A stretch of DNA of 57,985 nucleotides from an uncultured Bacteroidia bacterium (GTDB lineage Bacteria; Bacteroidota; Bacteroidia; Bacteroidales; UBA932), in NCBI GenBank assembly GCA_902801885.1, contig CADCJX010000015.1, forward strand, positions 19,161 through 77,145. The letters are read 5' to 3'. The position numbers and the translations under genes are program-made. The notes beneath the pieces are model-generated. The model searched no databases. It saw only the letters and a list, made by a program, of their open reading frames with translations, and was not told the origin of the DNA. Position 1 is the stretch's first letter; every line of letters begins with the position of its first letter. Shown here piece after piece: positions 1-37,276 of the stretch.

Positions 1-156
1 GAGCTGATTTCCGAAGAGAACATTTCCCTGATCGAACAACTGCCGGAGGAAATGGAACCGGAAGCCAGGGCCGAAGTGCTCAAGGAGTACTACGGAAACC
101 TTCTCGACGGCCTGGAAAGGATAAGGGAACGGCAGCAAAAGAACATCCGGATCTAA
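1..156 (+). CDS. 3' end of an unrecognised gene (partial)
   Basis: The frame is open from base 1 to a TAA at 154-156, giving the last 51 residues of a protein whose start lies outside the window. The tail is rich in Glu, Leu and Arg, looks helical, and ends in KNIRI. I see no motif that identifies a family. It lies 42 bases upstream of the DUF2807 gene on the same strand and could be co-transcribed with it. No promoter box is visible in the gap. Confidence 0.6.
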   Translation, partial: ELISEENISLIEQLPEEMEPEARAEVLKEYYGNLLDGLERIRERQQKNIRI

Positions 157-198
157 CGTAAAGATAATATTCAAGTAAAATCATAAAACCTCAAGAAC

Positions 199-1107
199 AT
201 GAAAAAGTTAATCATTGCAATGGCAGCCATGATGATGGCCTTCGCCAGCCTGGCTGCAGCAGAAACTACGAGCGACAAGTACGTCACCAAGGACTATGAC
301 CTAAAAGACTTCACCGGCATCGTTGCCAGCGGAATCTACGACATCCAACTCCAGAAATCCAACACCTGGAAAGTCAGCATCTCCGTTCCTGACGCACTCG
401 AGGAATATCTTGACGTAAGGGTCACCAACGGAAAGCTTGTCCTGGCCATGAAGCAGGTTCCTGTGAAGATCAGCAAGAACTACACCCACTGGACCCTCAC
501 GGCCAAGGTTGCCATGCCCGTACTCAAGAGCCTGAACATGAGCGGGGCCACTAAATTCTCCTGCGATGACACTTTCGACATCGGCGACGGAACGTTCAAA
601 ATGGAAATCAGCGGTGCTTCAAAGGCCAACGGCCTGAACATCAAGGGAAGAGACCTTGACATGGAGATGAGCGGAGCGACCTCCGGCAGCATCAAGGGCT
701 CATTTGTAACTGCCGACATAGAGATGAGCGGTGCAGCGAAATGCAATTTTGACATCGACGCTGAAGAATTGGATCAGGAAGTCAACGGTGCCGCAAAGGC
801 TTACCACAACGGTAACTTCTATTCAATAAAATTGGAAGCATCGGGGGCCGGAGTGTTCTCCTACAAGAATGCAGCTGAGAGCATGACTTTCGAAGCCTCG
901 GGTGCAGCGAAGGTTGAGACGTCAAAAGCTATGATCAAGAATGTCAGGGCCAGCATCTCAGGAGCCTCATACTGCGAAGTCAACGCCCTCTCGAACCTCA
1001 TCGTCGAAGCTACCGGCGCCTCCAGCCTAAGGTATGTCGACAACGAAGACATGGACCTGAACATCCGCTCTATCAGCCGCGGTGCCTCTGTGGCAAAGAT
1101 GAAATAA
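199..1107 (+). CDS. DUF2807 / head GIN domain exported protein
   Basis: 302 aa. A signal peptide is clear (residues 1-21, MKK then a hydrophobic core ending SLAAA), so the protein is exported. The rest matches the head-GIN/DUF2807 family of Bacteroidota, predicted right-handed beta-solenoid proteins once called putative autotransporter adhesins. The hallmark is a regularly spaced SGA or NGA triplet (MSGATK, ISGASK, MSGATS, MSGAAK, NGAAKA, ASGAGV, ASGAAK, ISGASY, ATGASS), about one per 20 residues, which marks the turns of the solenoid. The start ATG at 199 begins the signal peptide. Function is unknown for the family; a cell-surface role is inferred. It is followed by a hairpin terminator. 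Confidence 0.88.
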   Translation: MKKLIIAMAAMMMAFASLAAAETTSDKYVTKDYDLKDFTGIVASGIYDIQLQKSNTWKVSISVPDALEEYLDVRVTNGKLVLAMKQVPVKISKNYTHWTLTAKVAMPVLKSLNMSGATKFSCDDTFDIGDGTFKMEISGASKANGLNIKGRDLDMEMSGATSGSIKGSFVTADIEMSGAAKCNFDIDAEELDQEVNGAAKAYHNGNFYSIKLEASGAGVFSYKNAAESMTFEASGAAKVETSKAMIKNVRASISGASYCEVNALSNLIVEATGASSLRYVDNEDMDLNIRSISRGASVAKMK

Positions 1108-1134
1108 CAGGACCACCAAGACTTCATAAAAACG

Positions 1135-1164
1135 ACAATGCATGGGCAGAAACCCATGCATTGT
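1135..1164. terminator. Bidirectional hairpin terminator between convergent genes
   Basis: A perfect 12-base inverted repeat (ACAATGCATGGG / CCCATGCATTGT, arms 1135-1146 and 1153-1164, six-base loop) lies between the convergent DUF2807 gene and the 121-aa gene. Read on the minus strand the stem is followed by CGTTTTTATG, a short T tract, so it best serves the minus-strand gene; on the plus strand the tail is weaker (TCGTTAATATATT). Confidence 0.75.
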
Positions 1165-1188
1165 TCGTTAATATATTCAGAGAGAGAG

Positions 1189-1554
1189 CTAATTGTCTCC
1201 TCCGTCGTCATCCCCGCCGTACTGGGAGATGTTGTCGTCGGGAAGGGTCGAATCGGCCGCTGCGTCAGCAGAGGATCCTGCCACTTCCTCGTTCTCGGCA
1301 TCCTCTTCACCTTCAAGCCACCTTTCGAGGGCCTCGGCGTCATCGGTCTTAAGCTTGATCTTCACAAGATAGATTGAATCCGGAGTTTCGATGGTGACAG
1401 CATTGAACGGGGTACCGTCCGGCTTGGTGTATTTGACAAGGTCGGGAAGGTAATCACTGAACCCTTTGGGATATTTCTCATTGAAGATGGCAGCGAGTTC
1501 CTCTGACATGTTCTCGTAGCTGACCACGTGCCTTTTCCTTGTGTCTGGAGCCAT
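1189..1554 (-). CDS. Conserved Bacteroidales hypothetical protein with acidic tail
   Basis: 121 aa, no signal peptide or membrane segment. The N-terminal 80 residues look folded (YENMSEELAAIFNEKYPKGF, then a beta-rich part with AVTIETPDSIYLVKIKLK). The last 40 residues are strongly acidic and low in complexity, ending in GGDDDGGDN. The folded half resembles a small cytosolic protein I recall as conserved across Bacteroidales without assigned function. It is 70 bases downstream of the YgiQ gene on the same strand, so it may be the last gene of the rpoD-argS-YgiQ unit. The acidic tail suggests a nucleic-acid mimic or a charged linker, but that is only inference. Confidence 0.75.
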   Translation of the reverse strand: MAPDTRKRHVVSYENMSEELAAIFNEKYPKGFSDYLPDLVKYTKPDGTPFNAVTIETPDSIYLVKIKLKTDDAEALERWLEGEEDAENEEVAGSSADAAADSTLPDDNISQYGGDDDGGDN

Positions 1555-1624
1555 ATGAGTAATTTTAGTTCGTCTGTTTGCGGTGCAATATTAAGACTTT
1601 TTTCTGAATTGCAACACACTGGAA

Positions 1625-3340
1625 CTACTTTTTTCTGAAGAAAAATGATTTCTGTCGTTTTTTGCGTTCCGGATCGCGTTCCACAAAGACAGGTTTGAGG
1701 TTTCTGGGGTCAAGTCCGGTGTAGTACATGACAGACGAAGTGGTCATGGGGGTGGGCGTGAAATCCTGTACCTGGTCCATGAATATTCCCTTCAAGGCCG
1801 GATGACGGGAAAGGTTCTCCATGTCTTTCATGGTGCAGCCCGGATGGGATGAGATGAAATACGGGACTATCCCTGTCCTTCGTCCGTTCTCGGCACAGAT
1901 CCTGTCGAATTCATGGCGAAGCCTCTCGAATAGTTTGAAGGACGGCTTTCCAAGGTATTGCAGGACCCTGTCCTCGGTGTGCTCGGGAGCGACTTTCAGG
2001 CGGCCGGAAGTGTGATCCAGGATCAAAGTCTTGAGATAGGGCCTGGAAGTCTGGTCCACATAGCCCTTCTCATCAAGGAAGAGGTCGTAGCGGATGCCGC
2101 TGCCGATGTAGGAATGCCTGACCCCCGGGACAGAATCAACAGCCTTGTACAATTCGAGCAGTTTCTGGTGGGAGCGGTCCATGTTGGGGCAGACTGCAGG
2201 GAAAAGGCAGGATTTCCTGCGGCATTTCTCGCAAAGTTCCTGGTTCTTTCCACGCATCATGTACATGTTGGCCGTAGGAGCACCTAGGTCAGAAATATTC
2301 CCGGAAAACTCAGGCATGGCTGCGAGTTTGCGTACCTCAGCCACTATGGATTCCTTGGAACGGGACTGGATGAACTTGCCCTGGTGGGCAGCTATCGTGC
2401 AGAAATTGCAGCCTCCGAAGCATCCCCTGTGCGTGATGATCGAGTCCTTGATCATGTCATAGGCAGGAATCCTCTTGCCTTTGTAGCGAGGATGCGGTCG
2501 CTTGGTGAAAGGCAGGTCCCAGAAAGAATCCATCTCCTCCGTCGTGGATGGAGGGTAAGGTGGATTGATCTGGACATATCCGTCCCCTACCGGCTCGATG
2601 ATAGTCGCCGGATGCATCATGTTGGCATGGGTCTCGATCAGGTGGAAATTCTCCGCAACAGCCTTCTTGTCGGCCAGGCATTCCTCATAGGAATGCAGCA
2701 CCAGAGGGTCCTTGACCTTCCATTTGCCGCTCATCCTGAATGCAATCTGCGGAATCTGGTGGATGGAGTGAGGATTCCTCATGTCCTCGATAGCCCTGGT
2801 GAGTTCTAGCATAGGCTTCTCCCCCATCCCATAGCACAGGTAATCGGCAGGACACCACTCCAGGATGGAAGGAAGCAGACTGTCCTTCCAGTAGTCGTAG
2901 TGGGTAAGGCGGCGCAGCGAGGCCTCCACTCCACCGATCACGACAGGCACTTCAGGATACAGGTCCTTCAGGATCTTGGTGTAGACGCTGACGGCATAGT
3001 CAGGCCTGGCGCCAGCCTTCCCCTCGGGAGTGTAGGCGTCGTCATGACGGAGACGCTTTCCTGCCGTGTAGTGGTTGACCATGGAATCCATGGCTCCTGA
3101 ATTGACAGCAAAATACAGTCGCGGAGCGCCGAGCTTCTTGAAATCACGAAGGTCGTCCCTCCAGTTAGGCTGGGGGACGACCGCTATGCGATAACCGAAT
3201 TTCTGGAGCCAGCGGGAAATGCAGGCTGTTCCGAACGACGGATGGTCCACGAAGGCATCACCCGTGAAGAAGATTATGTCGATGTAGTCCCATCCGAGGG
3301 CCTCGACTTCCTTCTTCGAAGTCGGAAACATGTAATCCAT
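1625..3340 (-). CDS. YgiQ family radical SAM protein
   Basis: 571 aa. The radical-SAM cluster motif Cx3Cx2C is present as CFGGCNFC at about residue 310, preceded by an N-terminal domain of the YgiQ type (start MFPTSKKEVEALGWDYIDIIFFTGDAFVDH; note GGVEASLRR and YGMGEKP). A second Cys-rich segment (CEKCRRKSCLFPAVCPN) after the SAM core and the segment RHSYIGSGIRYDLF are typical of the family. The reaction is unknown. It is shorter than the E. coli protein (about 740 aa) because the C-terminal extension is reduced. Its ATG lies one base after the argS stop, so it is in an operon with argS and rpoD. Confidence 0.92.
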   Translation of the reverse strand: MDYMFPTSKKEVEALGWDYIDIIFFTGDAFVDHPSFGTACISRWLQKFGYRIAVVPQPNWRDDLRDFKKLGAPRLYFAVNSGAMDSMVNHYTAGKRLRHDDAYTPEGKAGARPDYAVSVYTKILKDLYPEVPVVIGGVEASLRRLTHYDYWKDSLLPSILEWCPADYLCYGMGEKPMLELTRAIEDMRNPHSIHQIPQIAFRMSGKWKVKDPLVLHSYEECLADKKAVAENFHLIETHANMMHPATIIEPVGDGYVQINPPYPPSTTEEMDSFWDLPFTKRPHPRYKGKRIPAYDMIKDSIITHRGCFGGCNFCTIAAHQGKFIQSRSKESIVAEVRKLAAMPEFSGNISDLGAPTANMYMMRGKNQELCEKCRRKSCLFPAVCPNMDRSHQKLLELYKAVDSVPGVRHSYIGSGIRYDLFLDEKGYVDQTSRPYLKTLILDHTSGRLKVAPEHTEDRVLQYLGKPSFKLFERLRHEFDRICAENGRRTGIVPYFISSHPGCTMKDMENLSRHPALKGIFMDQVQDFTPTPMTTSSVMYYTGLDPRNLKPVFVERDPERKKRQKSFFFRKK

Positions 3341-3341
3341 C

Positions 3342-5129
3342 CTACATCCTTTCAGGGAGTTCGATTCCTAGGATACCCATTGCCCTGCGGAGAACGGCGG
3401 ACAAGGTGTCGATGAGCACGAGACGGGCCTGGAGCATGGAGGGATCCTCCTCCTTCAGGATCGGAGTCTCATGGTAGTACTGGTTGAACTCCTTCGCGAG
3501 GTCGTAGGCGTAATTGGCAATGACTGCCGGTGAATATGCTCCAGCGCCTTCGGCCACCTTGGAGGGGAAGAGGTTAAGGAGCTTTATGAGCCTGATTTCC
3601 TTTGCGCTGAGTTCGACTGAGGGAATATTCCCGGAGCTGTACTCCACTCCCCTTTCAGCCGCCTTGCGAAGGATCGAACGGATCCTCGCATGGGTGTACT
3701 GGATGAAGGGGCCGGTGTTGCCGTTGAAGTCGATCGACTCCTTTGGATTGAAGAGCATGGTCTTCTTGGGATCAACCTTGATTATGAAGTACTTCAGGGC
3801 ACCGAGACCTATCATATGGTAGAGTTTCTCCTTCTCTTCCTCGCTCATGTCGGCGAGTTTGCCGGATTCCTCCGAAGTCGCCTTTGCTTCCTCGTACATC
3901 TTCTGGATGAGATCGTCTGCATCGACAACCGTTCCCTCGCGGGACTTCATCTTACCTTCCGGAAGCTCCACCATTCCGTAGGAAAGGTGGAAGATATTCT
4001 GGGCCCATGAGAAACCGAGTTTACCGAGGATGAGCTTCAGGACCTGGAAATGGTAGTTCTGCTCATCTCCCACGACGTAAACATGGGAATCGAGATTATA
4101 TTCAGCAAAACGCCTCTCTGCCGTACCAAGGTCCTGGGTAATGTAGACAGAGGTACCATCGGAACGTAGAAGCAGCTTGCGGTCAAGGCCGTCGGCGGTG
4201 AGGTCGCACCAGACTGAACCGTCTGGATCCTGGACAAAGACGCCCATATCAAGTCCCTTCTGCACAAGCGACTTGCCCAGCAGGTAGGTCTGGCTCTCAT
4301 AGTAGACCTTGTCAAAGGATATTCCAAGGGACTTGTAGGTCAAATCGAAACCATCGAGCACCCACTTGTTCATCCTGGCCCAGAGGTCGCGGACCTCGGG
4401 ATCGCCAGCCTCCCACTTCTGGAGCATCTCATGGGCCTCCTTGAGGCAAGGAGCCTCCTTCTTGGCCTGCTCCTTGTCCATTCCGCCCGCTACGAGCTCT
4501 TCGACTTCCTTTGTGAATATGTCGTTGAAAGCCACGTACATGTCGCCGACAAGGTGGTCGCCCTTCTTTCCTGAAGACTCCGGTGTCGCACCGTTTCCAA
4601 CCTTGAGCCAGGCAAGCATTGACTTGCAGATGTGGACTCCACGGTCATTGACCAGGGTGGTCTTTATTACATTGTTGCCGCTGGCCTTCAGGAGCCTCGA
4701 AACGGAATCTCCAAGGAGGTTGTTCCTGATGTGGCCCAGGTGGAGGGGCTTGTTGGTGTTGGGGGAACTGAACTCTATCATCACGTTCCTGCCGGTCGAT
4801 GGCAGGTAACCGAAAGTCTCGTCAGAGGCTATTTCGCTGAAGAGTTCATTCCAGTATATGTTGGAGAACAGGAGGTTGAGAAAACCCTTGACGCAATTGA
4901 AGCCCGAGATCTCGGGAACATTTGCGACAAGCCACTCGCCTATCGCCTTTCCTGTGTTTTCAGGTGTGGAACGGGACACACGTAAAAGAGGGAAGACGAC
5001 CAGTGTGTAGTCGCCTTCGAACTCTTTCCTTGTCACGCTCACCTGCAGCGCCGATGCTTCGACGTCCGCTCCGTATAGTGCCTTGATTGCTTCTGAAGCC
5101 TTCGAGGCGATGAACATGTCCGGGGTCAT
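3342..5129 (-). CDS. argS: Arginyl-tRNA synthetase
   Basis: 595 aa class I synthetase that charges tRNA-Arg in the cytosol. It has the N-terminal additional domain (residues 1-110), the HIGH signature as HLGHIRNN after SSPNTNKPLH (about residue 130), the KMSKS loop in the form GKMKSREG (about residue 395), and a helical anticodon-binding domain with the usual ending (SAVLRRAMGILGIELPERM). Length fits the family. The ATG abuts the stop of the sigma factor gene with no gap, so translation is probably coupled and both are transcribed together. Confidence 0.97.
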   Translation of the reverse strand: MTPDMFIASKASEAIKALYGADVEASALQVSVTRKEFEGDYTLVVFPLLRVSRSTPENTGKAIGEWLVANVPEISGFNCVKGFLNLLFSNIYWNELFSEIASDETFGYLPSTGRNVMIEFSSPNTNKPLHLGHIRNNLLGDSVSRLLKASGNNVIKTTLVNDRGVHICKSMLAWLKVGNGATPESSGKKGDHLVGDMYVAFNDIFTKEVEELVAGGMDKEQAKKEAPCLKEAHEMLQKWEAGDPEVRDLWARMNKWVLDGFDLTYKSLGISFDKVYYESQTYLLGKSLVQKGLDMGVFVQDPDGSVWCDLTADGLDRKLLLRSDGTSVYITQDLGTAERRFAEYNLDSHVYVVGDEQNYHFQVLKLILGKLGFSWAQNIFHLSYGMVELPEGKMKSREGTVVDADDLIQKMYEEAKATSEESGKLADMSEEEKEKLYHMIGLGALKYFIIKVDPKKTMLFNPKESIDFNGNTGPFIQYTHARIRSILRKAAERGVEYSSGNIPSVELSAKEIRLIKLLNLFPSKVAEGAGAYSPAVIANYAYDLAKEFNQYYHETPILKEEDPSMLQARLVLIDTLSAVLRRAMGILGIELPERM

Positions 5130-9822: not shown

Positions 9823-11292
9823 ATGAAGGCGCTTCCACATGCCGTTTTGTTTTTGGCCGTGCTTTGCTCAATGTTAGGATGCAAAGCAGACGGAGACAAG
9901 GGCGGCCATGTGGACGATAGCGTACCTCAATTCCTTTCGCTTGCTGAGCGACCTGGCGGTGGCTGGGTTGCTGTTTCAGTCTCCCCCTTCGACGGTTCTC
10001 GTGACACCTTGGTCATTGATCATCCGCTCACGAACCTCATCGTCATGAGCACCTCCCATGTCGGCTTCCTCGACGCACTCGATGCCCTCGACTGCGTCTC
10101 CGGCGTCTCTGGACTCGATTTTATCTATACCAACCCTGACGCAACGAATATGCCGTCAGGCTCTGACCCATATTCCTTGGCCGTAATGCACAGTGGTTCG
10201 GACGCCTCGCTGCGCGAGGCCCCACCGATCGCTTCACATCGTTCCGCTCCGGTCCCCCCTCTAGTGCCGAGGGTGGCATTGTCCTCACACACTGTGCCTT
10301 ACGGCCAGAATCATGAAAGTGTTGTGAATAATAGTGGCGCACTGTCGTCAGGTCTGGCAAGTCCAGACCGTAGCCACCCTCGGCTCGTAAGAGGGAGGGG
10401 CCCGCTCGCGAAGCGAGTGGGAGGGGCCGAGCGAAGCGAGGAGTCTGGACTGTCAGGGCCTGACGACGGAAGCAAATCGTCCGAACCACCAATATCTTCT
10501 GACAGAGGTATATTTTCACCGCCAGCCGACGTCGGCTACGACGCGGCGCCGGACTACGAGAAGATCGTGGCACTGAAGCCGGACGTGGTGCTGACATACG
10601 CGGTATCAGGGGCAAAATCACCCTTTGTGACGAAACTCACTCAACTTGGCATCAAGGTCTTCATCGTCAACGAACACCTTGAAAGACATCCCCTTGCACG
10701 AGCCTCCTACATCCGCCTCTTCGGCGCACTCACCGGCAGGATGCCCGAAGCCGATTCAATCTTCAACTCCGTCAAGGACGCATATTCATCAATCGCCGGC
10801 TCGGTCGATAACGCCGATCTGCCGAGACGGAAGGTGCTCCTGAATATTCCATACAACGACCAATGGTTCGTCCCCTCGACAGACAGCTACCTGACCTCCC
10901 TCATCAGGGACGCAGGCGGTGATGTCCTCGGTTGTGAAGAAGGCCGGGCAGCATCTACGGTGATGCCGGTCGAGAAAGCATATTCATTGAGCAAGGAGGC
11001 CGACTGCTGGCTCAATGTAGGCTGGTGCACCACCCTCTCCCAGCTGCTAGGAGTGAACCCAGTCTTCGAAGACATGGTAAGGAACATCCAGGACAATGCC
11101 CTCAAGCTAGGCTACGGCAGTTACCCTGTGATCTGGAACGACAACAAGAGGGTGAACGCCAAAGGAGGCAACGACATCTGGCAGAGCGGAGTAGCAAGGC
11201 CGGACCTGCTACTTAAGGACCTTGTCACCGTACTGCATCCCGACAACCAGGGAGAAGCCGCCGAAACGATCTACTACAGACAGATAAATTAA
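9823..11292 (+). CDS. ABC transporter solute-binding lipoprotein (BtuF/FepB type) with in-frame palindromic inserts
   Basis: 489 aa. An N-terminal export signal ends in MLGCKADG, a degenerate lipobox, so it is probably a lipoprotein. The fold is the type-III metal-chelate/cobalamin binding protein: first lobe with MSTSHVGFLDALDALDCVSGVSGLDFIY, then DVGYDAAPDYEKIVALKPDVVLTYAV, second lobe from about residue 265. Between them, about residues 113-233, lies a Pro/Ser/Arg-rich stretch with no place in the fold, encoded by two inverted palindromic elements (see repeats at 10179 and 10344). Without it the length would be near the family's usual 370. The frame is kept. No permease or ATPase gene is nearby. 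Starts directly after the exonuclease stop. Confidence 0.88.
   Translation: MKALPHAVLFLAVLCSMLGCKADGDKGGHVDDSVPQFLSLAERPGGGWVAVSVSPFDGSRDTLVIDHPLTNLIVMSTSHVGFLDALDALDCVSGVSGLDFIYTNPDATNMPSGSDPYSLAVMHSGSDASLREAPPIASHRSAPVPPLVPRVALSSHTVPYGQNHESVVNNSGALSSGLASPDRSHPRLVRGRGPLAKRVGGAERSEESGLSGPDDGSKSSEPPISSDRGIFSPPADVGYDAAPDYEKIVALKPDVVLTYAVSGAKSPFVTKLTQLGIKVFIVNEHLERHPLARASYIRLFGALTGRMPEADSIFNSVKDAYSSIAGSVDNADLPRRKVLLNIPYNDQWFVPSTDSYLTSLIRDAGGDVLGCEEGRAASTVMPVEKAYSLSKEADCWLNVGWCTTLSQLLGVNPVFEDMVRNIQDNALKLGYGSYPVIWNDNKRVNAKGGNDIWQSGVARPDLLLKDLVTVLHPDNQGEAAETIYYRQIN
10179..10306 (+). repeat. In-frame palindromic element, copy A1
   Basis: Arms GGCCGTAATGCACAGTG (10179-10195) and CACTGTGCCTTACGGCC (10290-10306) pair with one mismatch, with weaker pairing continuing outward to about 10169. 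Between them lies a 92-base core (10196-10287) identical at 88 positions to the core at 35329-35420 in recQ. The core starts GTTCGGACGCCTCGC, contains a 7-base hairpin (GCCTCGC-TGC-GCGAGGC, 10204-10220) and ends GGGTGGCATTGTCCTCA. Two bases separate core and right arm, as in recQ. It is translated in frame as SGSDASLREAPP and onward. Confidence 0.85.
10344..10467 (-). repeat. In-frame palindromic element, copy A2 (inverted, divergent)
   Basis: Arms of 25 bases, 10344-10368 and 10443-10467, are inverted copies with few mismatches (GTCGTCAGG...GTCCAGAC against GTCTGGAC...CCTGACGAC). The 74-base core, read on the minus strand, aligns with copy A1: shared are GCCACCCTCGGC, the GAGGG-GGGG stretch and the AAGCGAG / CGAAGCGAGG blocks. 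The orientation is opposite to A1. It is translated in frame (RGRGPLAKRVGGAERSEES). The left arm resembles host sequence at 10153-10167 (CCGTCAGGCTCTGACC). Confidence 0.75.
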
Positions 11293-31214: not shown

Positions 31215-31625
31215 ATGAATATGCTTATAGACAGTGATATGACCATAGAACTCGTGGGGATGGAATTCCACTCCTTCCACGGTTGCCTGGAAGAGGAGCG
31301 CAAGGAAGGGAATACATTCCTGGTGGATTTCCGCGGGAAAGCCGATCTAAGTAAGGCTGCCAGTACTGATGACCTCGAGGATACGGTAGACTACAGCAAG
31401 ATTTACGACATTGTGGCCTCCGAGATGGAAAAGCCGTCCAATCTCCTGGAGAATGTAGCCGGAAGGATCGTGGATGCTATTGAAAGGTCCGGGATGAAAT
31501 TCTGGTTCGTCCAGGTAAGGGTTTCGAAGAAGAATCCTCCGGTCGGTGGAATATGCTCATGGTCCAGGGTCACTGCCACCAATGGTACCGAGAGTTTCAA
31601 AGGCAGTTTCAACGAGGGACTCTGA
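31215..31625 (+). CDS. folB: Dihydroneopterin aldolase
   Basis: 136 aa. FolB marks: IELVGMEFHSFHGCLEEERKEGN with the catalytic-site Glu, FLVDFRGKADLSKAASTDDLEDTVDYSKIYDIV, LLENVAGRIVDAI and the Lys/Pro end VSKKNPPVGG. It splits dihydroneopterin to 6-hydroxymethyl-dihydropterin and glycolaldehyde in folate synthesis. Seven bases after the methyltransferase gene and two before mtaB. The ATG at 31215 could be replaced by a later one (31221), with no effect on the domain. Confidence 0.94.
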   Translation: MNMLIDSDMTIELVGMEFHSFHGCLEEERKEGNTFLVDFRGKADLSKAASTDDLEDTVDYSKIYDIVASEMEKPSNLLENVAGRIVDAIERSGMKFWFVQVRVSKKNPPVGGICSWSRVTATNGTESFKGSFNEGL

Positions 31626-31627
31626 AG

Positions 31628-33025
31628 ATGAAGATAGCGTTTCTTACACTTGGCTGCAAGCTCAATTACGCGGAGACCTCCACTTACGAGAGGGGGTTCG
31701 TAGCTGCAGGAATGGAGGTGGTGGACTGGGAGGAAAAGGCTGATGTGTATCTGGTGAACACATGCTCAGTGACAGAGCGGGCTGAGAAGAAGTGCCGCAA
31801 TGTCATAAGAAAGGTGCACAGGGTGTCGCCAGAGGCGAAGATCATAGTGACGGGGTGCTATGCGGAGTTGAGACGGGCTGAGTTGGAGGCAATCGAAGGG
31901 GTTGCAGCTGTCTTCGGTGCTGCTGAAAAGACCCGCGTTGTCCCAGACACTTTGTCCATTATCAGAGACTCATTCTGGCAGAATGGTCAAGCCATGCCGG
32001 AGGAGGGTGTTGCCCCCGAAGGGCCTGGCCGCCCGTGGCCAGGTGAACGGGAGGGGCCCAGAGCGAACGAAGTGAGCGATGGGAGGGATTTACCCGTCGG
32101 GGGTAACACCCTCCTCCGGCAAAAGAACATTCTTCCGGCATACTCTTCTGAGGAGAGGACACGGTCGTTCCTGAAGGTACAGGACGGCTGCAACAACTTC
32201 TGTGCATATTGCACCGTTCCTTACGCCCGCGGCACCTCCAGGAACATCCCCATCGCCACCGCCGTTGCCCAGGCAAAGGAAATCGCCGCCACAGGCATCA
32301 AGGAAGTAGTAATCACAGGAGTTAACACCGGCGACTACGGAAGGACAACAGGAGAGAGTTTCCTCGATCTTCTGAAACGGCTGAATGACGTTGAAGGAAT
32401 CGAACGCTACAGGATATCCTCCATAGAGCCAAACCTGATCACGGAAGAAATCATTGACTGGATCGCATCAGGCACCAAGTTCCAGCCTCACTTCCATATT
32501 CCGCTGCAGTCCGGGTCAGATCAGATCCTCCAGCGTGTACGCCGCCGCTATACCACGGACTTCTTTGCAGAAAGGATCGATTACATCCGTTCCGTCATGG
32601 ATCCCCGTCCTGGAGAACCAGAGGCCAACCTCAAGCCATTCGTATTCTTCGGGATAGACGTAATAGCAGGTCTGCCCGGAGAAACTGACGAACTGTTCGA
32701 GGAAACATATTCATTCCTGAAGGAGAGGGTCAGGCCGGCATTCATCCACATATTCCCCTACTCCAGGCGGCCGGGCACCGTCGCTGCCGGTTGGAAGGAC
32801 CAGGTCAGGGATTCCGTCAAGACAGAAAGGGTGGCAAGGCTTGAATCCCTTTGCGAAGAGCTCCATTCAGACTTCGTCTTGAAGAATAAAGGAAGGATCT
32901 CAAAGGTCCTCTGGGAATCTGATGTCAAGGACGGAATGATGGGAGGTTATTCGGGGAACTATATCAGGGTAACGAGGCCTTATGATCCGGGGAAGGTCAA
33001 CACAATAGAAGACATTATCTTATGA
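31628..33025 (+). CDS. mtaB: t6A37 tRNA methylthiotransferase MtaB with in-frame palindromic insert
   Basis: 465 aa from the ATG at 31628, which begins the conserved MKIAFLTLGCKLNYAET; the frame upstream overlaps folB and is not used. It has the UPF0004 domain with three cluster Cys (GCKLN, NTCSVT, GCYAE), the radical-SAM domain with CNNFCAYCTVPYARG, and a C-terminal TRAM-like end. It adds a methylthio group to t6A at position 37 of tRNA. Residues about 123-164, between the two domains, are Gly/Pro/Glu-rich and encoded by a palindromic element (31996-32120). Overlaps the next gene by four bases. Confidence 0.93.
   Translation: MKIAFLTLGCKLNYAETSTYERGFVAAGMEVVDWEEKADVYLVNTCSVTERAEKKCRNVIRKVHRVSPEAKIIVTGCYAELRRAELEAIEGVAAVFGAAEKTRVVPDTLSIIRDSFWQNGQAMPEEGVAPEGPGRPWPGEREGPRANEVSDGRDLPVGGNTLLRQKNILPAYSSEERTRSFLKVQDGCNNFCAYCTVPYARGTSRNIPIATAVAQAKEIAATGIKEVVITGVNTGDYGRTTGESFLDLLKRLNDVEGIERYRISSIEPNLITEEIIDWIASGTKFQPHFHIPLQSGSDQILQRVRRRYTTDFFAERIDYIRSVMDPRPGEPEANLKPFVFFGIDVIAGLPGETDELFEETYSFLKERVRPAFIHIFPYSRRPGTVAAGWKDQVRDSVKTERVARLESLCEELHSDFVLKNKGRISKVLWESDVKDGMMGGYSGNYIRVTRPYDPGKVNTIEDIIL
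31996..32120 (+). repeat. In-frame palindromic element, copy B, in mtaB
   Basis: 23-base arms, GCCGGAGGAGGGTGTTGCCC... (31996-32018) and its inverse (32098-32120), differ at one position. Inside is a perfect hairpin CCTGGCC-GCCCGT-GGCCAGG (32024-32043) and a core part GGGAGGGGCCCAGAGCGAAC...GATGGGAGGG that aligns with copies A2 and C (shared CGAACGAAGTGAGCG, GAGGGG). It is translated in frame as EGPGRPWPGEREGPRANEVSD and onward. Confidence 0.75.
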
Positions 33026-35065: not shown

Positions 35066-37165
35066 TCAGTCATTATAGACCGGGACTTCACCGTCATCGA
35101 TCAGCTGGCGAAGAATCTCCAGATAATCAGTCGAATAAAATTTCGAAGGATTGTCAAATTCAGCTACTATCTCCGTAATAGAATAATCTCCACCCTTTCC
35201 TTTGATGAACTCCACCAGCTTTCTTCTGGTGTACTGCCTCACAGTCGCTTCTGACCTCCCGGCACTTCTATCAAACTGCCCGGCAATTCCTTCTAGCTGC
35301 ACAGACGTTCCTTCAAACTGCCCCGGCAGTTCGGACGCCTCGCTCCGCGAGGCCCCACCGCTCGCTCCACTTCGTTCCGCTCCGGTCCCCCCTCTAGTGC
35401 CGAGGGTGGCATTGTCCTCATCTGCCGGGCAGTTTGAAGGAACTACCTGATGATATGGAAAGCCCGCAGCCTTGGAGCGGCAGACGTCACAAGTGCCGCA
35501 GTCGGAAGATTCTGTCTGGCCAAAGTATCGCAGCAGGAAACGCGAGCGGCACTCGTCGGTCTCGGAGGCATATTCAAGCATGGCCTGCGAACGGTCATGG
35601 TAGCTGTCTTTCAGCATGGCGAACCTTTTTGGCATCAAGTCCAGGTTTCCCGGTCTCAAGCGGTCATGATGCAGGAAAACCACATCGGAATGGGCTGCCG
35701 GCACATAGGAAATGACGTGTTCTAGAGACAGCGAATAAAGAAGCTGACGCAATTGAGGTACAGTGGTTCCAAGGCGTCCTGCAAGATATTCCTCATCCAC
35801 GGTCTGGAGGAATGAGAAGATCCCGGTGTAAGAACGCATGAGCACTTCCAGGAGGGACGCCAGTTCCTGACTAGGCAAGTCAATGTCGTAAAGCGACTTC
35901 CGGTCGACGGAGATGCGCACCTTCGTAGGGATGTCGACTTCTTCCGAAAAAGTTATGTGGCCGGTCCTCTCAAGGTACTTCATGGAATAAAACACTGGCG
36001 CACGCTGTAAACCATAGGTCTTGCAAAAGTCCTCGAGGGAGAACTTCAGCTGGCGGCCGATACCGGCATCGTAAGGTATTTCGAAAAAGGCATGTAGCTT
36101 CTGGTAAACATCCGCTATGAAGTCAAGAGATGGGAAAGAGACATTTTCGATCTGGCCCAGTCTCCTGACATCGATACCGTTCCAAAGAAGGAGGGCATAG
36201 GAACGCTTTCCGTCGCGCCCTGCCCTGCCGGCCTCCTGGAAATAGGCTTCAGGACTGTCAGGAAGATCGTAATGAGCCACGAAACGAACGTCCGGCTTGT
36301 CGATCCCCATTCCGAAGGCATTCGTACAGACCATTACCTGGATCTTGCCTTCCTTCCATGCTGCCTGACGTTCTGAGCGCGCAGCCTGTCCAAGACCAGC
36401 ATGATAGTATGAAGCGTCTATCCCTTCAGACCTTAGCATCGAAGAGAGTTCCTCGCACTTCCGACGGTTCCTGGCATAGATAATTCCGCTACCGGACACT
36501 CCCTTGCAGATGTTGACTATCTGGGAATATTTATCCTCGACATTTCGGACAATATAACTGAGGTTTGGCCTCTCGAAACCACTTCTCAGGACATTATTTT
36601 CCTTGAATGACAATTTGTCCATGATGTCCTCCGCCACTGCAGGAGTGGCAGTGGCAGTAAGCGCGATCACAGGGGCACCGATACGTTCACGCAGATCACC
36701 GATCTTAAGGTAGTCCGGCCGGAAGTCATAGCCCCACTGAGAGATGCAATGGGCCTCGTCTACAACGATGTAGCTTACATCCATGACTTCCAGATAAGAC
36801 TGGAAAAGCCTGGTAGCGATCCGCTCAGGAGAAAGGTAGAGAAATTTATAGTCACCGTAAGCAGCATTGTTAAGAGCCAGGTCCACCTCATGACGCGACA
36901 TTCCGGCATGGACGGCGATGGCCCTCACTCCCCTACGTTCCAGGTTCTGCACCTGGTCTTTCATCAAGGCGATCAGCGGGGTCACCACAAGGGTAAGCCC
37001 CTCCGCCATGATGCCAGGCACCTGGAAACAGACTGACTTGCCACCGCCTGTCGGCATGATAGCCAGGACGTCCTTCCCCTCCAAAGCTGAGTTGATGATC
37101 TCCTCCTGCATCGGACGGAAACCATCGTAGCCCCAGTATTCCTTCAACACTTCGACCGGCAACAT
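35066..37165 (-). CDS. recQ: ATP-dependent DNA helicase RecQ with in-frame palindromic insert
   Basis: 699 aa from the ATG at 37165 (MLPVEVLKEYWGYDGFRPMQEEII); the longer open frame has no conserved sequence and overlaps the promoter. Helicase motifs: MPTGGGKS (about residue 40), VVDEAHCISQWGYDFRPDY, TATATPAV, NAFGMGIDKPDVRFVAHYDLP and QEAGRAGRDG. The zinc Cys set is in CRSRFLLRYFG and CGTCDVC. After the zinc region, residues about 574-620 are a foreign Gly/Ser/Ala/Arg stretch from a palindromic element, then three heptads (QFEGTSV, QLEGIAG, QFDRSAG), then a conserved C-terminal domain (RKLVEFIKGKGGDYSITEIV). Divergent from pckA. Confidence 0.94.
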   Translation of the reverse strand: MLPVEVLKEYWGYDGFRPMQEEIINSALEGKDVLAIMPTGGGKSVCFQVPGIMAEGLTLVVTPLIALMKDQVQNLERRGVRAIAVHAGMSRHEVDLALNNAAYGDYKFLYLSPERIATRLFQSYLEVMDVSYIVVDEAHCISQWGYDFRPDYLKIGDLRERIGAPVIALTATATPAVAEDIMDKLSFKENNVLRSGFERPNLSYIVRNVEDKYSQIVNICKGVSGSGIIYARNRRKCEELSSMLRSEGIDASYYHAGLGQAARSERQAAWKEGKIQVMVCTNAFGMGIDKPDVRFVAHYDLPDSPEAYFQEAGRAGRDGKRSYALLLWNGIDVRRLGQIENVSFPSLDFIADVYQKLHAFFEIPYDAGIGRQLKFSLEDFCKTYGLQRAPVFYSMKYLERTGHITFSEEVDIPTKVRISVDRKSLYDIDLPSQELASLLEVLMRSYTGIFSFLQTVDEEYLAGRLGTTVPQLRQLLYSLSLEHVISYVPAAHSDVVFLHHDRLRPGNLDLMPKRFAMLKDSYHDRSQAMLEYASETDECRSRFLLRYFGQTESSDCGTCDVCRSKAAGFPYHQVVPSNCPADEDNATLGTRGGTGAERSGASGGASRSEASELPGQFEGTSVQLEGIAGQFDRSAGRSEATVRQYTRRKLVEFIKGKGGDYSITEIVAEFDNPSKFYSTDYLEILRQLIDDGEVPVYND
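35258..35320 (-). repeat. 21-base tandem repeat in recQ (three units)
   Basis: Three 21-base units, 35258-35278, 35279-35299 and 35300-35320, each starting CCCGGCA or a variant and ending AACTG or GCTG, encode the heptads QFDRSAG, QLEGIAG and QFEGTSV on the minus strand. The left arm of palindromic element C (35307-35328) overlaps the third unit and the next unit start, and the right arm is an inverted copy of the same sequence. Confidence 0.8.
35307..35443 (+). repeat. In-frame palindromic element, copy C, in recQ
   Basis: Left arm GTTCCTTCAAACTGCCCCGG... (35307-35328) and right arm (35423-35443, TGCCGGGCAGTTTGAAGGAA...) pair with a single extra base. The 92-base core (35329-35420) differs from copy A1 at only four positions, while the arms are unrelated to those of A1. 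Core hairpin GCCTCGC-TCC-GCGAGGC is at 35337-35353. recQ reads the element antisense to A1, as DNATLGTRGGTGAERSGASG and onward, without a stop. Confidence 0.88.
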
Positions 37166-37246
37166 ATTTAAAATTTTAAATCGTTTTATCACAACACTTT
37201 GCGAGGCTGCATGGCAAATAATTTGCAGTGAGAAACAAAGCTTTAA

Positions 37247-37254
37247 CAAATGTA
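37247..37254 (-). promoter_or_regulatory. Probable -7 box of recQ (TACATTTG)
   Basis: TACATTTG on the minus strand fits TAnnTTTG and gives a leader of about 75 bases before the ATG at 37165. It lies 22 bases from the divergent pckA box. Confidence 0.5.
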
Positions 37255-37276
37255 CGAAAAATACCATATTTTTACG

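Follow-up and report, generated by a model that had tools for sequence, protein, structure and literature searches.

The window, i.e., the whole stretch of 57,985 nucleotides analysed here, carries small palindromic inserts in three protein genes. Cores at positions 10196-10287 (copy A1) and 35329-35420 (copy C) form a direct repeat with 88/92 identical bases (96%); under the search settings applied, no repeat family in the window is longer. A sequence-only reading of this DNA had reported 92-base cores here with 88 bases alike, and both the coordinates and the count were reproduced on recomputation. It had also put each core on a locus-specific stem. Indeed, inverted repeats are found at both loci: at A1, 10178-10195 pairs with 10290-10307 (18 nt, 94% complementary), and at copy C, 35307-35323 pairs with 35427-35443 (17 nt, 100% complementary), the latter stem extending to the core, past a one-base bulge, as CGGCAG/CTGCCG. 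The open reading frames of a periplasmic binding protein (9823-11292) and of RecQ (35066-37267) are uninterrupted across the inserts. Furthermore, the window has two diverged minus-strand copies not listed in the earlier reading: A2, which that reading had probably noticed, to judge from its label A1, and a copy in an MtaB-like gene. The features are as follows.

9823..11292, plus strand: host gene 1, a periplasmic binding protein (PF01497) with A1 and A2 as in-frame inserts (ORF, Pfam)
10178..10195: A1 left arm, locus-specific (inverted-repeat search, I5)
10196..10287, plus strand: A1 core, type 1, element-forward (BLAST, direct repeat, covariance model)
10290..10307: A1 right arm (inverted-repeat search, I5)
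10344..10368: A2 left arm (inverted-repeat search, I3)
10363..10449 (approximate), minus strand: A2 core, diverged type, reverse orientation, the model edges overlapping the arms (covariance model, E 1.5e-8)
10443..10467: A2 right arm (inverted-repeat search, I3)
31553..33025, plus strand: host gene 2, MtaB-like radical SAM protein (PF00919, PF04055; ORF, Pfam)
31995..32121, minus strand: diverged copy in the MtaB-like gene, with arms 31995-32023 and 32093-32121 and core match 32018-32114 (inverted repeat, I1; covariance model E 0.014, weak alone)
35066..37267, minus strand: host gene 3, RecQ helicase, with in-frame copy C downstream of the zinc-binding match (ORF, protein, Pfam)
35307..35328: copy C left arm (inverted repeat, I6; sequence inspection)
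35329..35420, plus strand: copy C core, type 1, antisense to recQ (BLAST, direct repeat)
35423..35443: copy C right arm (inverted repeat, sequence inspection)

The MtaB-like gene of the sister genome G340 has no such insert.

Dispersed copies, core fold and arms

A check proposed with the sequence-only reading was to look for further copies in the genome and in related Bacteroidales, and many were found. The genome of the window (G000; 2.46 Mb, 31 contigs) contains 20 copies by BLAST and 29 matches to a covariance model at E<=0.1, 26 of which are below 1e-4 and the weakest three at E 0.002, 0.014, and 0.054. The model also gives 22 matches in G340 at E<=0.01 and, under the stricter E<=1e-6, 32 in G399 and 12 in G189. 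Matches occur in 23 of 61 genomes (the own genome and relatives), all 23 in the own genus, and zero were obtained in 24 genomes from other families of the order. When the family was sampled, the model matched 108 of 398 genomes at E<=1e-4, and these belong to 5 of 25 genera. Scanning named genomes by pattern gave at least 113 stretches; among the matches listed, the organisms are uncultured Bacteroidales or Bacteroidia, with many names referring to ruminant guts, one to horse faeces, and some to no source. The exact core pattern is absent from the viral contigs, and the A1 core has no BLAST match in plasmid and phage records. Two copies have the P4 motif without the usual CCCACC, both being small internal variants rather than a larger element. 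On contig C5 of G000, two type 1 copies (L002 and L005) lie 1.8 kb apart in neighbouring arginine-pathway-like genes.

In an alignment of 20 copies, the core folds into a short closing stem and three hairpins, four helices in all: 96.9% of the cells are in standard pairs, whereas shifting the partners by one to three columns leaves 32-49%. Changes on both sides occur in 6 of the 18 pairs. The arms were studied in 157 distinct copies chosen by the core motif, and left and right arms taken from different copies served as the control. Own-arm complementarity exceeds the 95% level of swapped arms in 155 of the 157, with a median alignment of 29 positions, 93% identity, and a score of 21 (6 for the control); a coarser energy-based test had 114 of 140 copies past the 1% threshold set by swapped arms. 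Visual inspection groups the inner 5-18 bp into subfamilies, with the outer part particular to the locus, and shows a one-base bulge retained in many arms. The earlier claim that arms share no sequence between loci thus holds for A1 and C but not for the larger sample, where this inner part often falls into subfamilies. Copies are located both in genes and between them, and some intergenic stems look like terminator hairpins. Arm mismatches in the 79 copies with one open strand would be wobble pairs in the mRNA in 26 cases and on the other strand in 39. Counted in element orientation over the 157 copies, mismatches are wobble on the given strand in 48 cases and on the opposite strand in 87, a split taken over related, non-independent copies that may reflect inherited bulges.

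Host genes, filled sites and empty sites

Ten in-frame hosts of G000 were identified by Pfam: RecQ, FtsK, IPP transferase (MiaA), LytB (IspH), semialdehyde dehydrogenase, class-III aminotransferase, mannose-6-phosphate isomerase, an oxidoreductase with a dihydropyrimidine-dehydrogenase domain, a radical SAM protein, and a binding protein. By our reading, the semialdehyde dehydrogenase is ArgC and the oxidoreductase is the glutamate synthase small subunit; host names come from predicted proteins and, beyond the ten checked by Pfam, are likewise our reading. Among 78 copies (29/29 of G000, 20/22 of G340, 17/32 of G399, and 12/12 of G189, the two G340 rows and one G399 row excluded being duplicates or too short), the frame is open through 150 nt on either side in 55, about the same share as in flanking control windows (108/156); as open frames are common in this DNA, this indicates no avoidance of genes rather than a preference for them. 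The frame-length test is stronger. At filled sites open to translation, the length difference from the sister site is a multiple of three in 20/20 cases, and at the remaining filled sites in 4/14. Judged from these lengths, genic insertions appear to be retained where the length is a multiple of three, and since the frame stays open, the insert is predicted to be translated. Tolerance in coding DNA, as had been proposed for A1 and C, is supported, the hosts including RecQ, FtsK, and chorismate synthase (AroC).

Orthologues without the insert exist, which bears out the sequence-only reading in its distinction between the insert and ordinary protein sequence: they are found, for example, in G033 for 7 of the 10 host genes searched, and in G340 for RecQ, IspH, and MtaB. 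Automated split alignment of the filled sites with the empty ones (24 comparisons, one unalignable) was too noisy in variable linkers for most cases, so closer species pairs were used, namely G000/G340 (20 sites) and G399/RUG13106 (14 sites), and the 34 sites were sorted by eye. At two sites (L267 and L358), one arm is native and the other is its inverted copy; at L026 the same holds over the outer 8 bp only. Both arms are missing from the sister site at five (L032, L035, L036, L274, and L346). Opposite L366, the sister site (L372) is a perfect bare hairpin, cttctgccag-a-ctggcagaag, without the core, and insertion into a hairpin and loss of the core fit this site equally well. The sister holds a core remnant or a rearranged copy at three sites (L041, L362, and L281) and a different sequence of similar size at eight (L277, L019, L022, L029, L037, L038, L350, and L364), and the element is in both genomes at six (L371, L369, L367, L352, L360, and L344, the last with other arms). 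Seven are ambiguous by eye (L270, L273, L276, L278, L033, L370, and L348). L266 also has the look of an inverted copy but is probably a loss: because G033 (L067) has homologous arms at that site and the G000 site may be a remnant, L266/L300 was dropped as a third clean case. A possible target-site duplication, tcat, is seen by eye at L036 only.

The two inverted-copy sites are both in chorismate synthase (PF01264). Between G340 and G000, the flanks of this gene are 91/89% identical, and the 108-nt insert of G340 precedes codons for RPGLAPSG that are the same as in G000 and form the right arm. The insert opens with AGGAGCCAGGCCGGCC, 16 bases that reproduce 17 native bases in inverted form, less one base, and the core comes next. 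RPxLA is present in RUG13106, too, so the native arm is old whichever direction the change took. In the second case, the G399 gene has flanks 95/94% identical to those of RUG13106 and an insert of 126 nt preceding native GGTGGCGACC, which is the same in RUG13106; the insert opens with GGTCGCCGCC, followed by inner arm, core, and inner arm. GGTCGCCGCC fits GGTGGCGACC at 9/10 bases as an inverted copy and at 7/10 as a direct copy, and three bases may belong to the border, so this case is weaker: the alignment suggests, less strongly, an inverted copy over 7-10 bases. An inverted copy of native flank over a good length is therefore well seen in the alignments at one site only, that of G340. Weaker alignments suggest inverted copying at ManA against G033, where the left arm aligns to the native linker with a score of 15 (background maximum 9; right arm 6), and at a glycosidase site (L136 against L024). 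In this arm-to-linker test, 6 of 14 comparisons are above background with the sides mixed, and ManA against G017 is not above it. The idea that insertion makes the inverted repeat accordingly stands well for G340 AroC, less strongly for G399 AroC, and as a suggestion for ManA and the glycosidase site, but not as a general rule, given the five sites where both arms are new and the bare hairpin opposite L366.

These exceptions bear on two other explanations. The whole hairpin, arms included, might move as a unit like an ordinary RPE (Rickettsia palindromic element), the arms having diverged afterwards. The five sites where both arms are missing from the sister, together with the inner-arm subfamilies seen by eye, agree with this, and such movement is likely for part of the intergenic copies. 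For the element as a whole, it is doubtful, because four copies of G000 match copy C at 96-98% of the core and yet have different arms at each locus, and because one arm is native at the G340 AroC site. Alternatively, the arms could be the target itself, if the core inserts into loops of pre-existing hairpins such as intergenic terminators or genic palindromes. The bare hairpin of L372 is what such a preference would predict; the stems of intergenic copies such as L030 and L219 have A and T tracts beside them, as bidirectional terminators do, and L038 has its outermost stem in common with G340, where an unrelated palindrome occupies the tip. Against this, no matching hairpin is present at either empty AroC site or at the empty L316 opposite L036, and we consider target preference unlikely, though it may hold for the intergenic class.

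Some sites have a more complicated history. L375 of RUG13106, opposite L362, retains gagggtggcagcgg, a piece of the core, indicating that internal deletion can degrade copies. Different repeats, palindromic or tandem and of the AGATTCTTCACTTCGTTCAGAATGACA type, are found in G340 (L317, L318, L288, and L309) at the same sites as L037, L038, L005, and L019 of G000, and at L038 the outermost stem common to the two genomes is terminator-like while the inner stem and core differ. At an E2-like subunit site, a longer and different GC-rich insertion is common to two genomes (L312 and L376), and other genomes carry the palindromic element in that linker. MiaA of G017 (L111) has a composite insertion of several palindromes, one arm of which is homologous to that of G000.

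Paired change and opposite orientation at the same site

Evolution of the stem was followed in 38 non-redundant same-site pairs with flanks less than 97% identical. Their arm base pairs comprise 773 unchanged, 102 with a single change, and 68 with a double change; a further 67 base pairs in alignment gaps are left out of these counts. Pairing is kept in 52 of the 68 double changes, and about 15 double changes would be expected if the sides had changed independently. Whether arms always covary had been raised as a question with the sequence-only reading: they do so on average, but not always. At the ArgC site of the sister species G000 and G340, the cores are 91% identical and the same 8-bp inner arm is present, while the outer arms differ, each being largely self-complementary, so that 12-14 bp are replaced on both sides.

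Paired change could also come from selection for structure, i.e., an RNA or single-stranded DNA hairpin functioning as a terminator, a processing site, or a transposase recognition site would keep the arms paired with no templated copying. Compensatory changes in both arms and core and the bulge maintained in many arms (by eye) are in line with this, as is the closer resemblance of most same-site pairs in the core than in the flanks, a likeness partly biased by the collection of copies by the core motif. Stepwise selection, however, poorly explains the replacement on both sides at ArgC; wobble pairs are not in excess in the mRNA (26 against 39, as above); and Rfam searches with 19 loci assigned no family, the single match being a chance one far below its gathering score. 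Taken together, selection for structure seems improbable.

The element also lies in opposite orientation at the same site in 12 of the 38 non-redundant pairs. Over all 111 same-site pairs, which are non-independent, 59 are in the same and 52 in opposite orientation. The clearest cases of opposite orientation with homologous arms are L124/L173 (flanks 92% identical), L146/L204, and L031/L275. Opposite pairs whose arms are homologous in element orientation are best read as inversion in place; separate insertions in one tolerant linker may instead lie behind some opposite pairs, since different elements are also seen at one site. A site-specific inverton, in which a recombinase acts on the arms and the core serves as the switch, would account for the frequency of opposite orientations, but the outer arms are unrelated between loci and offer no common recognition sequence, which makes this explanation barely credible. 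Homogenisation of the arms and inversion of the spacer between relatives match the pattern of template-switch palindromes.

Two sites of G000 and G340 differ from their surroundings in identity. At the ManA site (L040/L286), the element and its nearest flanks are nearly identical and the wider flanks are 86-88% identical, a possible recent exchange or conversion. At L039/L285, flank identity is 98% on one side and 90% on the other, which suggests a recombination border.

A proposed fold-back origin of the stem and the relation to known systems

With moderate confidence, we regard the element as a non-autonomous, RPE-like mobile palindrome in which fold-back template switching builds and maintains the stem, a process that would also flip the element. 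A mobile non-autonomous element is what the sequence-only reading had proposed, and dispersed copies as well as filled and empty sites between close species agree with it. The moving unit would be the structured core of about 75-95 nt together with an inner stem of its own, which ranges from a few bp to about 18 bp between subfamilies. Landing could bring an inverted copy of the adjoining host sequence, the native flank and its copy then becoming the two arms of the long stem. The likeliest route would be fold-back synthesis. The two core ends are able to pair (GGAC/GTCC or ACC/GGT), so once the core has been copied, the new 3′ end could snap back on its own strand, copy about 10-20 nt of flank backwards, and then return to the original template, yielding A-rc(B)-core-B. 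The same type of template switch would later re-pair mutated arms and invert the core in place. We infer, then, that one fold-back or template-switch process lies behind the flank copy, the paired arm changes, and the opposite orientation. Several observations run counter to this: single arm changes still outnumber double ones, free correction should have removed the bulge that many arms retain, and both arms are absent from the sister at the five sites mentioned above. A further-reaching version, possible but tentative, is that insertion itself is the fold-back event: the core would join one broken end, prime on itself, and build the stem from target DNA, and this self-made repeat would then stay paired, flip the element, and rewrite linkers of conserved proteins.

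Protein-coding palindromes pose the puzzle of how they spread and why they stay paired. With more than 100 related copies and with filled and empty sites in many sequenced species, single steps become visible here, namely insertion with a flank copy, paired change, and inversion. If the reading is true, a mobile sequence could make use of template switching, usually seen as background mutation, and inserts of at least 36 codons would be tolerated by conserved enzymes, chorismate synthase among them.

No mobilising enzyme was found. Of 16 genomes, 13 have matches to Y1 transposase genes, namely 8/8 copy-rich ones and also 5/8 without model matches, and the core is found at 2 of 22 Y1 loci, 1.1-1.5 kb away; the Y1 transposase was therefore dropped as the mobiliser, with no clear link. 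No larger autonomous element with the same termini was seen at the Y1 loci or in the plasmid, phage, and viral collections. RAYT is linked to REP. The element resembles the REP/RAYT system in being a small multicopy palindrome with Y1 transposase genes in the same genomes, and REP are described as small palindromic repeats with many copies in the portion of PMC3733652 consulted. Unlike REP (20-40 bp), the Bacteroidales element is much longer, and no link to Y1 genes was found.

Among the open-licence papers listed, the best 5-20 of 5 to 4,338 per search and none in one search, no title or opening of an abstract describes the element in Bacteroidales, and we would regard it as a novel variant among protein-coding palindromic elements. 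In the part of PMC2229807 used here, RPE are small palindromic repeats of 105-146 bp, intergenic as well as in frame in conserved protein genes, where they are tolerated. The Bacteroidales element is like RPE and those of Wolbachia in being a small palindrome, both intergenic and in frame. Unlike RPE, which have terminal inverted repeats according to the same part of that paper, its outer arms are locus-specific and, at one or two sites, copied from the host; it often lies in opposite orientations at one site; and its hosts are Bacteroidales. By the swapped-arm control, terminal repeats common to all copies are lacking, inner arms being common within subfamilies, and for this reason the element is set apart from RPE as described there and not classed as one.

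Template-switch mutation is reported to make stems in one step and to re-pair them (PMC8794818, in extract), and in yeast coding DNA to homogenise arms and invert spacers (PMC8604942, in extract). At yeast double-strand breaks, templated inverted copies, mostly of about 5-34 bp, arise via fold-back at microhomology (excerpt of PMC11724301). The Bacteroidales element differs from these fold-back inverted duplications, as no mobile core takes part in the process described in that excerpt. It also differs from quasi-palindrome or template-switch mutation, which acts on existing or chance repeats, in that here a dispersed mobile core seems to seed the process at new sites.
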